In this document: one piece after another, positions 20,400 to 38,064 of the stretch
Position numbering within the stretch: position 1 is the first letter of the stretch
Layout of the letters: every line of letters starts with the position of its first letter
Assembly (NCBI GenBank): GCA_002049455.2
Contig: KV918888.1
Coordinates: 62,001 to 126,000 of the forward strand
DNA: 64,000 nucleotides
Source: Porphyra umbilicalis
Taxonomy: Eukaryota > Rhodophyta > Bangiophyceae > Bangiales > Bangiaceae
Reading direction: 5' to 3'
Translations under genes and position numbers: made by a program
The notes under the pieces: model-generated
What the model saw: the letters and a program-made list of their open reading frames with translations, nothing else
What the model was told of the DNA's origin: nothing
Database searches by the model: none

Positions 20400-23300
20400 G
20401 CGCCCGCCGCCTCGGCCGCCGGCCGTCCGTCCCCCCCCCCCCCCCCCACCCCGCGCCCGCCGCCCCCGCCCTGTCGCCGCCGCGCTTCCCCCCCCCCCCC
20501 CCCCCCCCCACCACATCAAGCCCATCGCCGCGTGCACCACAGGCGACTCGGTACCCCCCCCACCCCGCCCCCCCTTTGCTCCATTTTTTTTCTCCTTGTT
20601 TTCTTGCTTGTTCTCCCTCGACCCCGCCGCCCCCCCCACCCCCCCCCCCCCCCCCGCCCCCTCCGCGGCGCTGCCATGCCGCCCCCCCCCCCCGCCGCCC
20701 GCGGCGGCAGCGGCGGCGCGCCCGCATCGGCCGCCGGCGGCGGCGGCGCGCCCACGCCGACCCCCACCGCCGATTCCCCCCCCCCCCCAAACGCGCGCGG
20801 GTGTCCCCCCGCCCCCCCGCCCCCCCCGCGCCCGCGGCCGCGCCCGCCGGCGGGGGCACCCCGCCCCCCCCCCGCGCCCGCCGCCCGCCGTCGCGGCTCG
20901 CCGACTTGGCCGACGCGGCGGCCGCCGCGACGCCGTCGCCGCCGCGGCCGTCCACCCGCTCCGCGGCGCCGCCGGGGGCGGCGGCGGAGGCGGCAGCGGC
21001 GGCGGCGACGGCGGTGGCGCTGTCGCCGCCGCGGCCAACCACCCGCGCCGCGGCGGCGGGCGGCGCCGCGGCCGCGCCGGCGGCGGCGGCGGCGACGGCG
21101 GCGGCGGCGACGGCGGCGGCGCTGTCGCCGCCGCGGCCAACCACGCGCGCCGCGGCGGCGGGCGGCGCCGCGACCGCGCCGGCGACGGCGGCGACGGCGG
21201 CGGCGGCGACGGCGGCGGCGGCGGGGGCGGCGGCGCTGTCGCCGCCGCGGCCAACCACGCGCGCCGCGGCGGGGGCGGCGCCGCGACCGCGGCGGCGACG
21301 GCGGCGACGGCGGCGGCGACGACGGCGGCGGCGGCGGGGGCACCCGCCCCCTCCCCCGCGGCCGTTGGCGCGGCGGCGGGGGTGGCGGCGGTCGCGGCCG
21401 CCGCCGCCGCCGCGTCGGCCGCGGAGCGCGCCGCCTTTGCGTCGGTCGTGGCGGCGGCGACGCGGCCGGCGGGGCCGCCGGCGGGTGCCGCCGCGGGGGG
21501 GGGAGAGCGCGCGGCGGCGGGGGGGGGGGGGGGGGTGGGGCGGCTGCTGCCGCCCCCACCTCGGCCGCCGCCGAGCGCGCCGCGTTTGCGGCCATCGTTG
21601 CCGCCGCCACGCGGCCGGCGTCGACGGCGACGGCGACGGTGGCGGCGGCGGCGGCGGCGACGGCGACGGCAGCCGCCGGCCGCCGCTGGTCGACGGGCGG
21701 TCACACGCCGGCGGCGGCGGCCGGCACGGCGGCGGCGGCGGCGGCGGCGGCGCGCCCCCCCGTGACGCCGCCGGCCATTCGGGGGGCGGCGGCAACGACG
21801 CCGCCGGGGCGCCGGTGGCGCCCGGGCGCCGCCGCCGCGCGCCGCGCGCCGCCGCCGGCGGTGGGGGGGCGGCGGGCGGGGGGGGGGGGGGGGGGGGTGC
21901 CCCCGCCCCCAGTGCCGGCGGCGGCGGGCGCGGCGGCGGCAGCGGGGGGGGGGGGGTGGCGCCGGCGACGGCGCCGGCGCTGCTCGCGCGCCGCGCCGCG
22001 TCGGCACCGGCGCCGGCGCCGGCACCGTCGCCCGCGTCGACACCGGCGGCACGCCCGTCGCCACTGCCGTCGGGCGGGCGCCCGTGGCCGTCAATGCTCG
22101 CGCGCCGCGCCGCGTCGGCGGCGGCGGCGACGGCGGCGGCGGCGGTGGCGACACCGCCGCCGCTGCCGCCCACGCACGCGTTGCCACTGCCGTCGGGGGA
22201 GCGCCCGGCGCCGTCCGTGGCGGCGGTCGACGCGGCAGCGGCGGCGGCGGCGGCGGCACCGTCGCCGCCGCTGCCGGCAACGCCCGCGTCGGCGGTGGCG
22301 GCGGCGCTCGCCCGCCGCACCCCGGCGAGGGTGGCGACCGCGGCGGGTCGGCGCGCAGCGGCGCCGGCGCCGTCGTCCCCGGCGGCAGACGCGGGGACCC
22401 CACCGCCACCCTCGCCGGCGCCATCACCAACCGGGCGCCCGCTGCGGGCGGCGCGGGGGGGGGCGCCGTCGGCCACGGCGGCGGCCGCCCCGCCGGCGGC
22501 GTCCCAGCCCGCGGCGGCGGCGGCGGCGGCGGCAGCGCCGACGCGGCCCGCAACGCTGCCGGCAACGGCAAACCACCGGCCGTCGGCGCGGTCGGCCGCA
22601 CCGACGCCACTGGCGGCACCGTCGGCAGCGCCCACGCCGGCCGCGCCGTCGGGCGCGTCGACGGCGCCGCCGCCGTCGACGCTGCCGCGCGCGTCGGCGC
22701 GGGTGGCGACGCCGCCAACGTTGGCGACGGCCACGCCGCCCGTGCGGCCGGCCGCGCCGACGCTGCGCGTGCGGGCGGCGGCGGCGGCGGCACCGCCGCC
22801 AACCACAGCGGCGGCGGCGACGGCACCGCCGCCAACCGCAGCGGCGGCGGCCGCCCCCCGCCCCGCGGCGGCGCCCGCGGCGGCGACGCCCGCTCGGCCG
22901 GCCGCTGCCGCGGCGGCGGCGGCGCCCGCCCGCCCTCCGCGGGTGCCGTCGCCCGCCGCGCCGCCGCCGCCGGCCGACGCGCCGCCGCCGTCGTCGTCCC
23001 CGCCGCCCGCGCCGGCGGCCGTGACGCGGCGGTCCGCCACGCCCGCCCCCGCGCCGGCGCGGCCGGGGGGGGCGGCCGCCCGCGCGGCGACAGCGGCGCC
23101 GGCCGCGCAGGCAGCGCCGGCCCCGCCGGCGCGTATCGTAGCGGCCGCCAACGGCGCGGCGGGCGCGGCGGGCGCCCCCGCCGCCACCCCCGCCGCCGCC
23201 CGCGCGCCACCCGCCGCAACGGTGGCGGCGGCGGTGCCCGCGCGGGCGGTGGCGGCGGCGGCAGCGCCCGCCGCAGCACCAGCCGCGGCGCGGCCGTCGC

Positions 23301-23426
23301 CGCCCGCCGTGGCGGCCGCCGCGCCGCCCGCGGCGCGGCCGGCACCCGCCCAGGCAGCCCCACCGACGCTGACGGTGGCCCCGGCGGCGGCGGCGGCCGC
23401 CGCGCCGCGCCCCGCCCCCGCGCGCA
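20400..23426 (+). other. Ala/Pro/Arg-coding G+C repeat tract, possible 5' extension of the amine oxidase gene
   Basis: About 3 kb of nearly A/T-free sequence, open in most frames because stops need A and T. Evidence that the plus strand may code: the phrase giving SPPRPTTRAAA recurs at about 20932, 21019, 21121 and 21235 with spacings 87, 102 and 114, all multiples of three. Paralogous phrases ERAAFASVVAAATRPA and ERAAFAAIVAAATRPA occur near 21425 and 21575, and RPWPSMLARRAASA-like phrases near 22000-22110. These lie in different plus frames separated by G or C homopolymers (for example near 21515 and 21885). A start candidate is the ATG at 20676. Whether this is one protein fused to the oxidase or non-coding expansion cannot be settled by eye. 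Confidence 0.4.
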
Positions 23427-25997
23427 ATGCACCCGCGGCGGCGCCTGCGGCGGGGCGGCGGGCGTCCTTGCCCGTGCCCCCCCCGCCGCCGGCGCGCCCG
23501 CCGCGGCCGCCCCCGCCCGTCGCCGGCGCCGTCCCCCCGCCGGGCACCGACGCTTGCGCCGCGTCCCGCGGCGGCGGCGGCGGCCGCCGCCGCGGGCGCG
23601 CCCGCCGCGGGCGCGCCCGCTGCGCCGCGCGTCGCGCCGCGCCGCGCGCCGGCCGCCCGCGGCCGCCGGGCGGGGGGGGGTGGCGCCGCCGCCGCGGCGC
23701 GGCGCGCGCCGCCGCCGGCGGGGCTCGCCCCGGCCCAGACGGCGCCGGCGCCGACGCCCGCGGCGGCGGCCGCCGCGGCCGCCGGCGGGCGCGCCTCCCC
23801 TCCCGCCCCCGCCGCCCGTGTGTCTGCCACCCCCGCGGGTGTGGCGCTGCCACCCGCACCCGCCGCCGCCGCCGCTGCCGCCGCGGCGCCCGCCGCCGCG
23901 GCTGCGGTCGGCGCGGGGACCCGCCCCGGGGGGCGCCTCCCCCCCGGCGCGGCCCCCCCCAAGTCGGTCCTGATCATTGGGGCGGGCCTCGCCGGCCTCG
24001 CCGCCGCCCGGGAGCTCACCGCCGTCGGCTTTTCGGTGACGGTGGTGGAGGCGCGGCCGCGCCTCGGCGGCCGCGCCGTCACGGACTGGTCGCTCGGCGC
24101 GCCCGTGGACGTGGGCGCCGCCTTTGTGCACGGCGTCGACGGCAACCCGCTGGCGCCGCTCGTCATGGCGGCGGGCACGGAGGTGTACACGCCGCGGGAG
24201 GTGTCGTCCCTCTACACGTCGGGCGGGGCGACCATCCCCAAGGCGGACGACGCGCTCATGGGCTCTCTGTGGCGGCGCATGCTCAACGAGATGGACCGCT
24301 TTAGCCGCACCCCGCCGCTGTCCGCGTCGGCGTCGCTCGACGTGTCGCTCGGGGAGCTCGTCAACCAGCTGACGGCCGTGTTGGAGCTGACGCCCCCGCA
24401 GGCGGCCGCCCTGCGGTGGCAGGTGTGCAACGTGGAGATGCCGTGCGCGGCCGACTTGGCGGACCTGTCGGCCAAACACTGGGACATGGACGTGGTGAAC
24501 GCGTTTGGGGGGCAACACCCGGTGCTCTGCTCGGGCTACTCGTCGCTCGTCGCCAAACTCGCGGCGGGCACGACCGTGCACACGGGGACGGTCGTGCGGG
24601 GGATTGAGTGGGAGGTGCCCGTGGCGGAGGGCGGGGCGGCGGCCGCCGACGGGATGGACACTGGCGGCACTGGCGGCGGCGGCAGCCCCTCCTCCTCCCC
24701 CTCGCACCCCCCCCGCCTCGGCGTGCGCGTCACCGCCACCGCCGCCGACGGTTCCCCCCGCACCTACACGGCCGCGGCGGCGATTGTTACCCTCCCGCTG
24801 GGCGTCCTCAAAGCCGGCACGGTGGCGTTTGACCCCCCCCTCCCCCTCTGGAAGACGGTGCCGATCGAGCGGCTCGGGTGTGGGCTCCTCAACAAGGTCG
24901 CCCTGCGCTTTGCGGCGCCCTTTTGGCCGCCCACCGCCGACTATGTGGCACACGCCCCGTCGGCCGCGACCGACGCGTCGTCCCGCTGCGCGCACTTTCT
25001 TTTCCTCTCCCTCGCCGCCGCCACGGGCGCGCCCATCCTCGTTGCCTTCCTCGCCGGCTCCGCCGCCGAAGCGGCCGAGGCGCGCCCCGACGGGGACCTC
25101 GTCGACGCGGCGATGGGGGTCCTCCGCGGCATCTTCCCCGCCGCCCCCGCCCGACCGCTCGCCTACACGGTGACGCGCTGGCGGGCCGACCCGCACGCGC
25201 GGGGCAGCTACTCGTACCCGGCCGTCGGGTCGACGCCGGGGGATTACACGGCCATGGCGCTGCCGCTCGGGCGCACCCTCCGGTGGGCGGGGGAGGCGAC
25301 GAGCCGCGACGCGCCCGCCACCGCCCACGGCGCGTTTGCGTCGGGGTTGCGGGAGGCGGGGCGCCTCGGGCGGGAGGCGGGGGGGATGTCCCCGGCGGCG
25401 GGGGCGCTGTGGGAGCGGGAGCTGGCGGGCATGTTTTACCCGCCAGTGGGGATTGGCGCGCAGCTGCGGTGGCGGCGCCCGCCGTCGGGAGGAAGGCAGA
25501 GGGAGGGGGGGGGGGGGGGTCGCCGGCCGTCGGCAAGGCCGGGGGGGGGGGGAGGCCGCCGGTGCAAAGGGGGGGGGCGCCCCGCGGCGGCCCCCGCGGG
25601 GCAAGCGCAAGCGGTCGGCGGCCGCGTCGTGAGCGGCTGCCCGGGCGCCACTTTCGTGGCGCGCCGTGCGGTGGGGTGGGCTTTGCGACGCACGCCTCGC
25701 CCGTGCGTCGTCTTGTCATGGGGTGCGGGCGCCTGCCGGTGGTTGCCGGTCACTGGAAACGGCCGTCGATGTTCCCTGTTGCCTGTCGCACAGTGCCGTG
25801 CTCCATCCCCCCCGCCGCCATCCTGCGGCGCTCACCCCCCCCGGCACCCCCCACCGTCGCCCCCCCCCCCCCCCCCGCTCACCCAAACGACTCCAAGCGG
25901 CCGAGGAGGTGCCCAAAAGCGCCCTCAACGGCGGCCCCCCCCTCCCCCCCCCCCACCTCTGCCGCCGCCGCCACCCCCAACGCGCGCACGCCCGTAA
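23427..25997 (+). CDS. Flavin amine oxidase, LSD1/polyamine-oxidase type
   Basis: The FAD-dependent amine oxidase domain starts near residue 179: VLIIGAGLAGLAAARE (dinucleotide fold), VTVVEARPRLGGR (GG motif), VDVGAAFVHG and, near 371, YSSLVAKL. The segment GLLNKVALRF near residue 487 contains the Lys matching the conserved flavin-contacting lysine of LSD1 and plant polyamine oxidases. Near 617, TLRWAGEATSRDAPATAHGA closes the FAD site. The family oxidises polyamines or N-methyl-lysine using O2. No SWIRM domain and no LSD1-type tower insertion are visible, so substrate is open. The ATG at 23427 gives a 178-residue Ala/Pro/Arg leader that could continue a much longer upstream tract. The catalytic domain ends near residue 650 (about 25376); the remaining low-complexity tail to the stop is doubtful and overlaps the 3' end of the opposite gene. 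Confidence 0.82.
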   Translation: MHPRRRLRRGGGRPCPCPPRRRRARRGRPRPSPAPSPRRAPTLAPRPAAAAAAAAAGAPAAGAPAAPRVAPRRAPAARGRRAGGGGAAAAARRAPPPAGLAPAQTAPAPTPAAAAAAAAGGRASPPAPAARVSATPAGVALPPAPAAAAAAAAAPAAAAAVGAGTRPGGRLPPGAAPPKSVLIIGAGLAGLAAARELTAVGFSVTVVEARPRLGGRAVTDWSLGAPVDVGAAFVHGVDGNPLAPLVMAAGTEVYTPREVSSLYTSGGATIPKADDALMGSLWRRMLNEMDRFSRTPPLSASASLDVSLGELVNQLTAVLELTPPQAAALRWQVCNVEMPCAADLADLSAKHWDMDVVNAFGGQHPVLCSGYSSLVAKLAAGTTVHTGTVVRGIEWEVPVAEGGAAAADGMDTGGTGGGGSPSSSPSHPPRLGVRVTATAADGSPRTYTAAAAIVTLPLGVLKAGTVAFDPPLPLWKTVPIERLGCGLLNKVALRFAAPFWPPTADYVAHAPSAATDASSRCAHFLFLSLAAATGAPILVAFLAGSAAEAAEARPDGDLVDAAMGVLRGIFPAAPARPLAYTVTRWRADPHARGSYSYPAVGSTPGDYTAMALPLGRTLRWAGEATSRDAPATAHGAFASGLREAGRLGREAGGMSPAAGALWERELAGMFYPPVGIGAQLRWRRPPSGGRQREGGGGGRRPSARPGGGGGRRCKGGGRPAAAPAGQAQAVGGRVVSGCPGATFVARRAVGWALRRTPRPCVVLSWGAGACRWLPVTGNGRRCSLLPVAQCRAPSPPPPSCGAHPPRHPPPSPPPPPPLTQTTPSGRGGAQKRPQRRPPPPPPPPLPPPPPPTRARP

Positions 25998-26361
25998 TCA
26001 TGGCCGGGAGGGGCACGCCCAGCTCCCCATACAACTCGCCCATAATCGCGGATCCCGCGTCGGACGTCCAGCCCCCCCCCCCCCCCCCGCCACCGCGTAC
26101 GACGCGACGCGCACAAAGTGCCAAAAGTCGCGCCAGCAGGCGGCCGCCCGGAACGGCGGGTACAACCCCCCGCCGGCGTCAAAGATGCCGGGGTGCGCGT
26201 CGCCAACCGCCCCGCGCGCGTCTGCAATGAGCGCGTCGACGCGGTCGCGGAGGGCGGCGGCCGCGGCGGCGGTTGGCGGCGACGACGCGGCGGCCGCCAG
26301 CTCGGCGTCGGTGAGGAAGCGGCCGCCCGCCTGCGCGGCGGCGGCGGCGGCGGCCAGCGGC

Positions 26362-26398
<37 letters not shown>

Positions 26399-26697
26399 TG
26401 ACAGACGCCAGGAGCGCCGGGTCGCACAGCGGCGCCGCCCGCTGCGCGGCAATGAGCGCTTCGGCGCGGGGGGAGAGGCCGGGGGAGGTCCCCGCCGTCA
26501 CCGCGTCGGTGCGGGCGGGGCGGGGGGCGCCGGGGGGGGGGCGTCGGCCGACGCGGATGGCGTCGTGGCGACGCGGGGGGGGGGGGGCGCGTACAGACGC
26601 TGCGGCGGTGGGGGGGGGGGGGGGGGGGGGGGGGGGGCCGCGTGGCGCGGGGGAGGGCGCCGGCGGGGACAAAGGCGGCGGCGGGCGGGGGTGCCAT
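25879..26697 (-). CDS. Allophycocyanin-like phycobiliprotein, plastid-targeted, frame-broken
   Basis: The ATG at 26697 begins MAPPPAAAFVPAGALPRAT, typical of red-algal plastid transit peptides. The body follows the phycobiliprotein fold pattern: GRFLTDAELAAAA (helix A/B), LRDRVDALIADARGAVGDAHP, then GGGLYPPFRAAACWRDFWHF and VRVASYAVAGG, matching the allophycocyanin block around the bilin-binding Cys (C followed by R-D). The final block, AIMGELYGELGVPLPAMITG, then VRALG and a GAFGHLLGRLESF end, matches the C-terminal helices of allophycocyanin alpha/beta-like subunits. The first block, core and last block are in three frames. The breaks coincide with G/C homopolymers at 26610-26637 (28 nt) and 26072-26088 (17 nt); smaller runs lie near 26532 and 26577. 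Canonical ApcA-F/CpcA-B are plastid genes in red algae, so a nuclear paralogue is notable. Role unknown: rod/core variant, photoprotective or bilin-binding scaffold. Confidence 0.7.
26072..26088. repeat. 17-nt poly-C tract at a frame break
   Basis: On the minus strand this is a Gly-coding G17. The protein homology to phycobiliproteins changes frame exactly here: SYAVAGG upstream, SAIMGELYGELG downstream. Confidence 0.95.
26610..26637. repeat. 28-nt poly-G tract
   Basis: Uninterrupted G28 on the plus strand, a Pro run on the coding strand between the transit leader and the mature phycobiliprotein-like part. Strong G-quadruplex and slippage candidate. Confidence 0.95.
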
Positions 26698-34419: not shown

Positions 34420-36252
34420 TCAGTTGCGTGGATTGCTTGTGACGGCCGACCGCCCCCCCGCCGGCGCCACACGGTACGGCCCGACGCGTCGAGGCGGAGC
34501 ACGGGGCTCATGGGCGAGCGCACCTCCTCCCGCCGCCCCCTTGCCGCTTCCCCAAATCGCGCCACACCAGCCCTCCCGCGCCGCCGCGCAATCGCCCCGT
34601 ACTGCACCTGCGGCCAACAGCAGGGACCGCCGCAACGCGGGAGCACGTGTGGCGTGCGCACGGGTCGGTGGTACGGGCGTCGCCAGAGGGGACGCGTGGA
34701 CGAGACACAGCCTGGGGAGGCATGGAGCGCGTGAGCGCCGGGGCGACATGGCGGCCGGCCGCCGTGGCCGCCGCCGCCTCACCGCCGCCCGACCGGCGCG
34801 TGACGTGCCGCCCGCAGCCGCCGCCTGTGCAGTGTCCGCCACACCAGTGCCGCTCGCCACCGACGCAGCGGCGCTCCCCAGACGCGCGTCGGGGGGCGGC
34901 GGCCCCGCGGCGGCTGCTCGGCGTCGGAGGCGCCCCCCCCTACGGCCCCCCCGGGCGCCGCGGGCGCCCGCGCGCCCGCCCGCACCGGCGCGGGCGGGGG
35001 CACCCCCCCCCCGGCGGGCCAGCGCCCCCCCCCCCCCCCCCCCCCCCCCACCGCGCGGCGGTTCGGGGCGGCGCCCCTGTCGCCACCGCTGCCGCGACGG
35101 GCGCCGCGCGCGGCCCCCCCCTGCGCCTGCAAACGCGTCGCCGTCGGCCGCGCCGCCGCCTCCATCCCGCCCGCCACTGCCGCCGTCGCTGCCGCCGGGC
35201 GGCCCGCCGCCACCGTCCGACGTGGAGCCGCCCGTGGCGTCGGCGGTGCCACCGTCGGCACGCCGCCCGTCGTCGGGGACGGAGGCGCCCGCCGCCCCGC
35301 TGCCGTGGCGCCGACCGTCTTGCCCGCGGGGAGAGGTGCCCCGTGACACGCCGTCGCCCCGCCCGTGTCGGTCGGTCAGCAGGGTGACCCACGTGCGCAC
35401 GTCGACAGACGGCTGGCCGCTGGTGGACCGGCCAGTGAACCACCAGTCTCCAGAGCCTGGCGGCGAACCCCAGTCAACGGGAGTATCGGTCACTGCTGGG
35501 GGGCCTCGGACGTCGCCGCCGCCGCCATCATTGGGCGTCAAAGCGTGCGCGGGGCGGCGGCAGGTCGGGCAGCTCGGGTTGCGCGCGAGCCACCGCGCCG
35601 CGCAGGGGCGGTGCAGGGCGTGCGCACACGGCAGGGTGTGGATGGCGGGGAGGGGGGTGTCGGCGCCACCACCGCCGTTGCCGTCCCCGTCGAGGCCGCC
35701 GCCGTCAATGGCGTCGCCGTCCGAGTCGTCCCCACTGGTGCCGCCGCCGTCTGCGGGGCCACCGTCAATGCCACCACGGTCGGTGGCGCCCCCGTCATTG
35801 CCGCCGCCGTCGGTGCCGTCGGCGCTGTCGGCGGCGGCACCTCCCCCCCCCCCACCGCCGTCGCGGTCCCCCCTGCCGCTGCCGCCGCCGTTGCCACCGT
35901 CGCTGCCGTCGCCGCCCCCGTCAGTGTCCCACTCCCCCACGTCGTCGCCGCCGTCGCCCCACGCCCCGTCGGCGGGCCAATACGCGGTGGGGTTGGACGA
36001 GCTCCCGCTCCCGCCCGCCCCTACGCTGCCGTCGCTCGCAAAGCCCCCCGCCGCGGAGAGGGGCTCCCAGCAAATCACGCACGGCGCGGCGGCCGCGTCG
36101 CCGTCGGCGCCGGCGACGGGGGGTGACGCCGGCAGGGCGGCGGGTGGCGATGGGGGCGGCGATGGGGGGGGGGACGGGGGGGGCCCCGACGCCCCCGCCA
36201 ACGGCGGTGAGGGGCGGGCCACGGGGGGGTCGCCGCCCGACGGACCGCTCAT
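34420..36252 (-). CDS. RING-H2 protein with a long Asp/Gly insertion in the RING
   Basis: ATG at 36252 (MSGPSGGDPP). A Pro/Ser-rich N-terminus leads to the first zinc pair CVIC (C58, C61). The second half of the RING, LPCAHALHRPCAARW and then NPSCPTCR, supplies C209, H211, H214, C217, C228 and C231: a full C3-H2-C3 set. Between C61 and C209 lies a 147-residue insertion rich in Asp, Gly and Ser, far longer than the usual 9-39 residue loop. RING-H2 proteins are mostly E3 ubiquitin ligases. After the RING are more Asp/Gly/Ser repeats and an Arg/Ala/Pro tail crossing a C24 tract at about 35026-35049, so the true C-terminus is uncertain and may lie well before 34420. Confidence 0.65.
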   Translation of the reverse strand: MSGPSGGDPPVARPSPPLAGASGPPPSPPPSPPPSPPAALPASPPVAGADGDAAAAPCVICWEPLSAAGGFASDGSVGAGGSGSSSNPTAYWPADGAWGDGGDDVGEWDTDGGGDGSDGGNGGGSGRGDRDGGGGGGGAAADSADGTDGGGNDGGATDRGGIDGGPADGGGTSGDDSDGDAIDGGGLDGDGNGGGGADTPLPAIHTLPCAHALHRPCAARWLARNPSCPTCRRPAHALTPNDGGGGDVRGPPAVTDTPVDWGSPPGSGDWWFTGRSTSGQPSVDVRTWVTLLTDRHGRGDGVSRGTSPRGQDGRRHGSGAAGASVPDDGRRADGGTADATGGSTSDGGGGPPGGSDGGSGGRDGGGGAADGDAFAGAGGGRARRPSRQRWRQGRRPEPPRGGGGGGGGGALARRGGGAPARAGAGGRAGARGARGGRRGGRLRRRAAAAGPPPPDARLGSAAASVASGTGVADTAQAAAAGGTSRAGRAAVRRRRPRRPAAMSPRRSRAPCLPRLCLVHASPLATPVPPTRAHATRAPALRRSLLLAAGAVRGDCAAAREGWCGAIWGSGKGAAGGGALAHEPRAPPRRVGPYRVAPAGGRSAVTSNPRN

Positions 36253-38033: not shown

Positions 38034-38064
<31 letters not shown>

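Follow-up and report, generated by a model that had tools for sequence, protein, structure and literature searches.

The window analyzed here, 64,000 nucleotides of Porphyra umbilicalis DNA (assembly GCA_002049455.2, contig KV918888.1, positions 62,001 to 126,000), encodes a phycobiliprotein at 25879-26697. In our best explanation, to which we give a probability of about 0.6 as a whole, this is a nuclear-encoded, plastid-targeted member of the cyanobacterial Apl/AplA (allophycocyanin-like) family, which would bind a bilin, be linked to phycoerythrin and stay outside the phycobilisome. An earlier note, made from the letters of this DNA alone, had given the same interval, which proved exact; the strand, unstated there, is minus.

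The joined reading frames match the Pfam phycobilisome family PF00502 far beyond chance (E = 4.4e-26, 92.1 bits; Pfam cut-off 22.2). The unbroken central frame as printed (P0001) is likewise above the cut-off (7.9e-17, 62.1 bits), and its trimmed 81 amino acids give 2.2e-16. The C-terminal 63 amino acids alone stay under the cut-off (0.0019, 18.6 bits), and the assignment of this piece to the gene therefore rests on position and conservation. Membership in the phycobiliprotein family, for which the earlier note had asked for exactly this profile search, is thus confirmed. The leader MAPPPAAAFVPAGALPRAT, the AAACWRDFWHF block and the LYGELGVPLPAMITGVRAL block that had been pointed out in that note were all found, spread over two alternating frames, and the bilin site C-x-R-D is present in frame, with Cys followed by W-R-D. 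A search for canonical subunit identity with the six NCBIfam equivalog models listed (ApcA, ApcB, CpcA, CpcB, CpeA and CpeB) yielded scores far under the cut-off throughout, ApcA being best with 38.7 bits against 270. No nuclear partner was found that would form an alpha/beta gene pair, the gene being the lone nuclear PF00502 match in the genome.

As read through, the gene contains two frame breaks, both inside homopolymers (28 G in one case, 17 C in the other). The joined reading of 271 codons has no further stop, and in both frames the third codon position has the highest GC content (0.92 and 0.85). We consider the breaks most likely to be homopolymer-length errors or polymorphism, and the gene is for this reason probably intact. 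Runs of at least 12 G or C occur 32 times in the window (for example at 20431-20509, 35025-35049 and 38039-38064); with such long mononucleotide runs, other genes of this region may likewise have frames broken by the assembly.

Comparison with cyanobacteria placed the protein in a family of its own. Each of the 80 cyanobacterial loci fetched (the best 80 of 141 found) encodes a protein that shares 46-56% identity with the core of the window protein, compared to 26-33% for the phycobiliproteins of the alga's own plastid. In a tree of 54 rows, 46 rows (the window protein, 42 cyanobacterial and three marine-type sequences) split from eight plastid subunits at 100/100. Together, these results rule out a paralogue of the plastid phycobiliprotein genes, and the view of the earlier note, in which the gene was a diverged paralogue in the nucleus and perhaps encoded a subunit of the core, is not supported. 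Within the five genomes checked, the family profile found one gene at 297-340 bits, the other phycobiliprotein matches listed reaching at most 109. Every residue of CWRDFWHF is identical in all 80 homologues, a conservation that is partly ascertainment since ACWRDFWH was one of six search patterns; the bilin Cys noted earlier lies in this motif. Aligned marine-type forms carry CWRDC at this site. The 80 homologues share 57 columns with a conservation of 95% or more, of which the window protein retains 44 and changes 13, and the retention rates before (27/35) and after (14/18) the second frame break are alike; in the N-terminal part three of four are kept. An N-terminal extension of 23-29 residues, most commonly 28, precedes the allophycocyanin start in 40 of the 42 cyanobacterial rows, in agreement with the extension of about 28 residues by which Apl exceeds allophycocyanin. 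The window protein has the LSxRxxxLI block of this part, but with a glycine-rich insert.

The identification of this family as Apl is suggested by gene order. According to PMC2246261, aplA is preceded by unk4 and lies upstream of cpcGII, which is generally followed by the pentapeptide gene unk5. Three 2.3-Mb marine-Synechococcus-like genomes (loci L090, L091 and L092) have a small gene on one flank of the family gene, and a linker plus a pentapeptide-repeat gene on the opposite flank. This matches the aplA order gene by gene in L090 and L092, and with one extra linker between in L091; the linker and pentapeptide identities were confirmed by Pfam in L090 only. Since the family gene occupies the published aplA position in marine-type genomes, we call it Apl; the synteny holds for the cyanobacterial members and not for the red-algal locus. 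In larger cyanobacteria, with neighbour clusters labelled from one representative each, the flanking genes at the 80 loci include phycobilisome linkers (43), CpeS-type (40), pentapeptide (31), Peb reductase (27) and CpeT-type (26) genes, and at least one other phycobilisome-type gene, pentapeptide genes included, lies near apl in 60 of 79 loci.

An NblB-like HEAT gene is located upstream of apl, in opposite direction and within 2.5 kb, at 42 of the 69 loci with enough upstream DNA (for example L052, 2055-2717), and its product is a candidate for a dedicated lyase or partner. The alga offers only a weak HEAT match (E = 9.4e-5, 31%) at positions 886-2403 of locus L108, on the nuclear contig C349. 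This frame matches back best to HEAT genes near apl (about 27-36% identical), scores 52 bits with the NblB model (cut-off 300) and possibly encodes a nuclear lyase or NblB-like protein. Given this weak match, we do not claim a HEAT partner gene for Apl in the alga.

The gene is located in the nucleus, as the earlier note had supposed. Its contig, C128, is one of 665 in an assembly totalling 83.8 Mb. The neighbouring genes code for an FAD amine oxidase and for Pelota, with eRF1 domains 1-3, and the window has a GC content of 0.69 versus 0.31 and 0.34 at two plastid loci. Ten of the 11 PF00502 matches in the whole assembly are on contig C665, which is the plastid by gene content; eight of these ten are separate phycobiliprotein genes, and the other two belong to a single long frame that we regard as ApcE. 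The eleventh is the window gene. The transit-like leader recognized earlier resembles in-frame leaders at two of eight nuclear phycobilisome-linker loci of the same genome (MAAFIPAGG at L100 and MAFITS at L102). A third similar leader, MAFVST at L098, lies upstream of the linker in another frame, three of the eight loci being readable in this respect. By this analogy, we infer that the Apl-like protein is plastid-targeted. No second nuclear copy or allele was seen among the 40 of 95 DNA-search candidates that were scored, and the remaining listed matches, of 67-100% identity, cover query parts that we judge to be of low complexity. A scan of viral contigs with the 89-amino-acid core confirmed no viral relative among 135 candidate stretches.

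A link to phycoerythrin emerged from a census of 386 cyanobacterial genomes. Of these, 52 proved to carry Apl and 60 CpeB over its cut-off, the two occurring together in 47 (Fisher p 1.4e-42, kinship ignored). The Apl count derives from a second profile (A2, E 1e-32), with which every Apl match reaches at least 173 bits; a first one (A1, E 1e-40) found 36 of 386 and missed most marine forms. Other phycobiliproteins in 29 genomes reach at most 97 bits with the census profile, and the large scans scored up to eight candidates in each genome. Thirteen genomes have CpeB without Apl. Ten of these have at most five first-look CpeB candidates and are probably Prochlorococcus-like, judging by their size, and three (G096, G277 and G303) are true exceptions; among the CpeB genomes with at least 11 first-look candidates, 47 of 50 have Apl. 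Cryptophytes retain phycoerythrin-type biliproteins. In PMC6811547, cryptophytes are described as having a nuclear relative, and Cyanidiophytina as lacking both phycoerythrin and the relative, a pattern that fits the proposed link.

In antenna subunits the N-terminal helices dock the partner, and AplA reportedly does not build allophycocyanin trimers. ApcA, ApcB and ApcD share the PF00502 globin fold and the C-x-R-D bilin site with Apl; allophycocyanin chains are 19-28% identical to an Apl family member in structural alignment, and Apl differs by its added N-terminal extension. In a predicted structure of a Crocosphaera Apl homologue (pLDDT 94.5), the globin part superimposes on smURFP at 2.1 Å over 135 residues. 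The whole model fits most allophycocyanin chains only at 3.5-4.5 Å over 141-149 residues, with Foldseek giving 8.2-8.7 Å, whereas most allophycocyanin alpha chains superimpose at 1.0-1.8 Å over about 160 residues on a control model of ApcA, predicted by the same method from an alignment of equal depth. Because Apl fits poorly where the control fits well, its N-terminal helices are predicted to be placed differently from those of allophycocyanin. Such a placement would suit a protein that forms no allophycocyanin trimers.

Several observations weigh against the explanation proposed here. The Apl assignment is putative, being drawn from synteny and general features of AplA rather than from the founding AplA sequence. 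The branch of the window protein is very long (3.32), its composition is odd and the bootstrap is not settled, so that its exact place within Apl is not fixed; for the same reason the tree fits either of two origins, and the gene may stem from the plastid ancestor or from a later cyanobacterial transfer. The window protein lacks the family-conserved Asp of the N-terminal A-D-D motif, and the two frame breaks could signal a pseudogene. The structural model represents a homologue and not the window protein itself, and ApcA was likely in the training set of the predictor. Moreover, by rmsd some chains fit the Apl model better than ordinary allophycocyanin does, namely the recombinant allophycocyanin chain 9ka8_C, at 2.7 Å over 142 residues, and, among 13 cryptophyte beta-type chains listed, 11 at 2.5-2.9 Å over 145-151 residues. 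The predicted Apl arrangement hence resembles that of another partnered phycobiliprotein, and the different helix placement leaves some kind of partner possible. Five genomes (G041, G238, G240, G256 and G315) have Apl without CpeB over the cut-off, and phycoerythrin alone is not enough for Apl, as ten CpeB-carrying genomes with few phycobiliprotein candidates have no Apl. In one of the five (G041, 2.8 Mb; L089, 9824-10408), apl is situated outside any rod-gene cluster, with one CpeT-like gene near.

If the frame breaks were real, the locus would be a dead pseudogene, an Apl inherited by the nucleus and since decayed. The breaks themselves, the changes in 13 of 57 conserved columns, the long branch and the absence of the relative from Porphyra umbilicalis reported in PMC6811547 would all suit such decay. 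We nevertheless regard it as unlikely, since both breaks sit in homopolymers of 17 and 28 bases, a type of run common in this window, no other stop interrupts the joined codons, the bilin-site octapeptide is intact and the family columns are retained at similar rates before and after the second break. The DNA could alternatively be a recent plastid insertion, and a nuclear phycobiliprotein gene in an alga whose others are plastid-encoded might at first point that way. With protein identity to the plastid phycobiliproteins as low as 26-33%, a GC-rich coding sequence and no plastid-contig match among the DNA-search matches listed, the chance of this is negligible; the low identity also contradicts the decayed plastid-DNA insertion that the earlier note had set against its own interpretation.

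A specialized phycobilisome core subunit of the ApcD, ApcF or ApcE kind, re-encoded in the nucleus, would share the common fold, and among solved chains ApcD indeed comes nearest to the family profile (110 bits). Yet the plastid contig has its own set of eight separate phycobiliprotein genes and ApcE-type frame pieces, the ApcA model is missed by a wide margin (38.7 bits versus the cut-off of 270), the window protein groups with neither plastid ApcD nor ApcF in the tree, and no solved chain, red-algal 5y6p and 6kgx included, scores as a family member (best 110 bits; members 140-340), which makes a core subunit quite improbable. We know of no solved phycobilisome from this alga. Bilin biosynthesis-associated globins (BBAG), the phycobiliprotein paralogues of PMC10151467, are in part described there as bilin-binding and equipped with C-x-R-D motifs. 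The same text places cyanobacterial BBAG next to V4R and iron-sulphur genes, whereas the recurrent neighbours of apl are linkers, CpeS, CpeT, Peb reductases and HEAT proteins. On this distinction, drawn from the gene neighbours, a BBAG identity appears very improbable. Membership in Apl remains our preferred reading; the features of the gene are compiled in Table 1.

Table 1. Features of the Apl-like gene in the window.
Feature	Position	Strand	Remarks
Whole Apl-like gene, as read through	25879-26697	minus	ATG 26697-26695, stop 25881-25879
Leader MAPPPAAAFVPAGALPRAT, transit-peptide-like	26641-26697	minus	from the translated reading and resemblance to linker leaders
G run, 28 bases, change from leader to central frame	26610-26637		
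Central frame	26089-26609	minus	low-complexity stretch, LSPRAEALI block (family N-terminal extension), start of phycobiliprotein domain
Bilin-site block CWRDFWHF	26115-26138	minus	CWRD itself at 26127-26138
C run, 17 bases, second frame change	26072-26088		
C-terminal frame with WTSDAGSAIMGELYGELGVPLPAMITGVRAL, ending ..LLGRLESFG	25879-26071	minus	from the reading and family conservation

The neighbouring FAD amine oxidase gene (23373-25496; PF01593, 4e-66) is convergent with the Apl-like gene and encodes a long Ala/Pro-rich N-terminal part of low complexity.

The AplA/Apl family of cyanobacteria reportedly goes back to Montgomery et al. 2004. Its members resemble the window protein in homology over the whole domain, in the C-x-R-D site and in their separation from the canonical subunits; the window gene differs in being nuclear, in its leader and low-complexity inserts and in the loss of the conserved A-D-D motif. 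The aplA product is described in PMC2246261 as a photosensor of unknown function that is not linked to the phycobilisome. A nuclear-encoded, plastid-targeted phycobilisome protein is also on record for Porphyridium purpureum (Lee et al. 2019, PMC6811547). In that paper it groups with cyanobacterial APC-like globins (cd12130), and by this description its family would be that of the window protein, which it resembles in being nuclear and plastid-targeted. The range reported there, determined by blastp, is limited to Proteorhodophytina and cryptophytes, with no relative in Porphyra umbilicalis, Chondrus or Gracilariopsis, whereas the window gene comes from the Bangiales. The sequences themselves make this order likely: plastid cytochrome c6 agrees with Porphyra yezoensis 1gdv at 82 of 85 positions, and assembly size and window GC lie near published values (87.889 Mb for P. 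umbilicalis, 70.06% GC for N. haitanensis). Plastid ApcA speaks against it, with 91% identity to P. yezoensis 1kn1 and 96-97% to Gracilaria 5tjf. As judged from its sequence, the gene described here contradicts the published absence from Porphyra umbilicalis, and a gene model broken by homopolymers would explain why a protein search missed it. No Apl protein named from Bangiales was found in the literature searched, which mostly excluded subscription papers and did not include the 2017 P. umbilicalis paper. The main new fact is an Apl-like gene in Bangiales together with the phycoerythrin link, while a nuclear relative was already known from Porphyridium.

In the mechanism that we propose, the Apl-like protein would be imported into the plastid and bind one bilin at the cysteine of CWRD. 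Its shifted N-terminal helices would prevent pairing into an alpha/beta allophycocyanin protomer, and the protein would remain outside the phycobilisome. There it might act as a bilin- or light-status sensor for the phycoerythrin system, or carry bilin while phycoerythrin is assembled, roles that we infer from gene context and co-occurrence.

If Bangiales have Apl, the gene moved to the nucleus before the two mesophilic subphyla of red algae diverged, or did so repeatedly. The near-coincidence with CpeB and the nuclear copy in a phycoerythrin-bearing red alga lead to the concrete hypothesis that Apl serves phycoerythrin and not the core. We tentatively suggest that Apl represents a non-antenna function bound to phycoerythrin, in bilin sensing or handover, that passed from cyanobacteria to red algae and, judging from print, to cryptophytes; it may have moved to the nucleus while the antenna subunits stayed in the plastid, and have been overlooked in seaweeds through a homopolymer-broken gene model. 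That the alga and phycoerythrin-bearing cyanobacteria both keep Apl points to a long-lived helper or sensor of this pigment system, as opposed to a normal antenna component.

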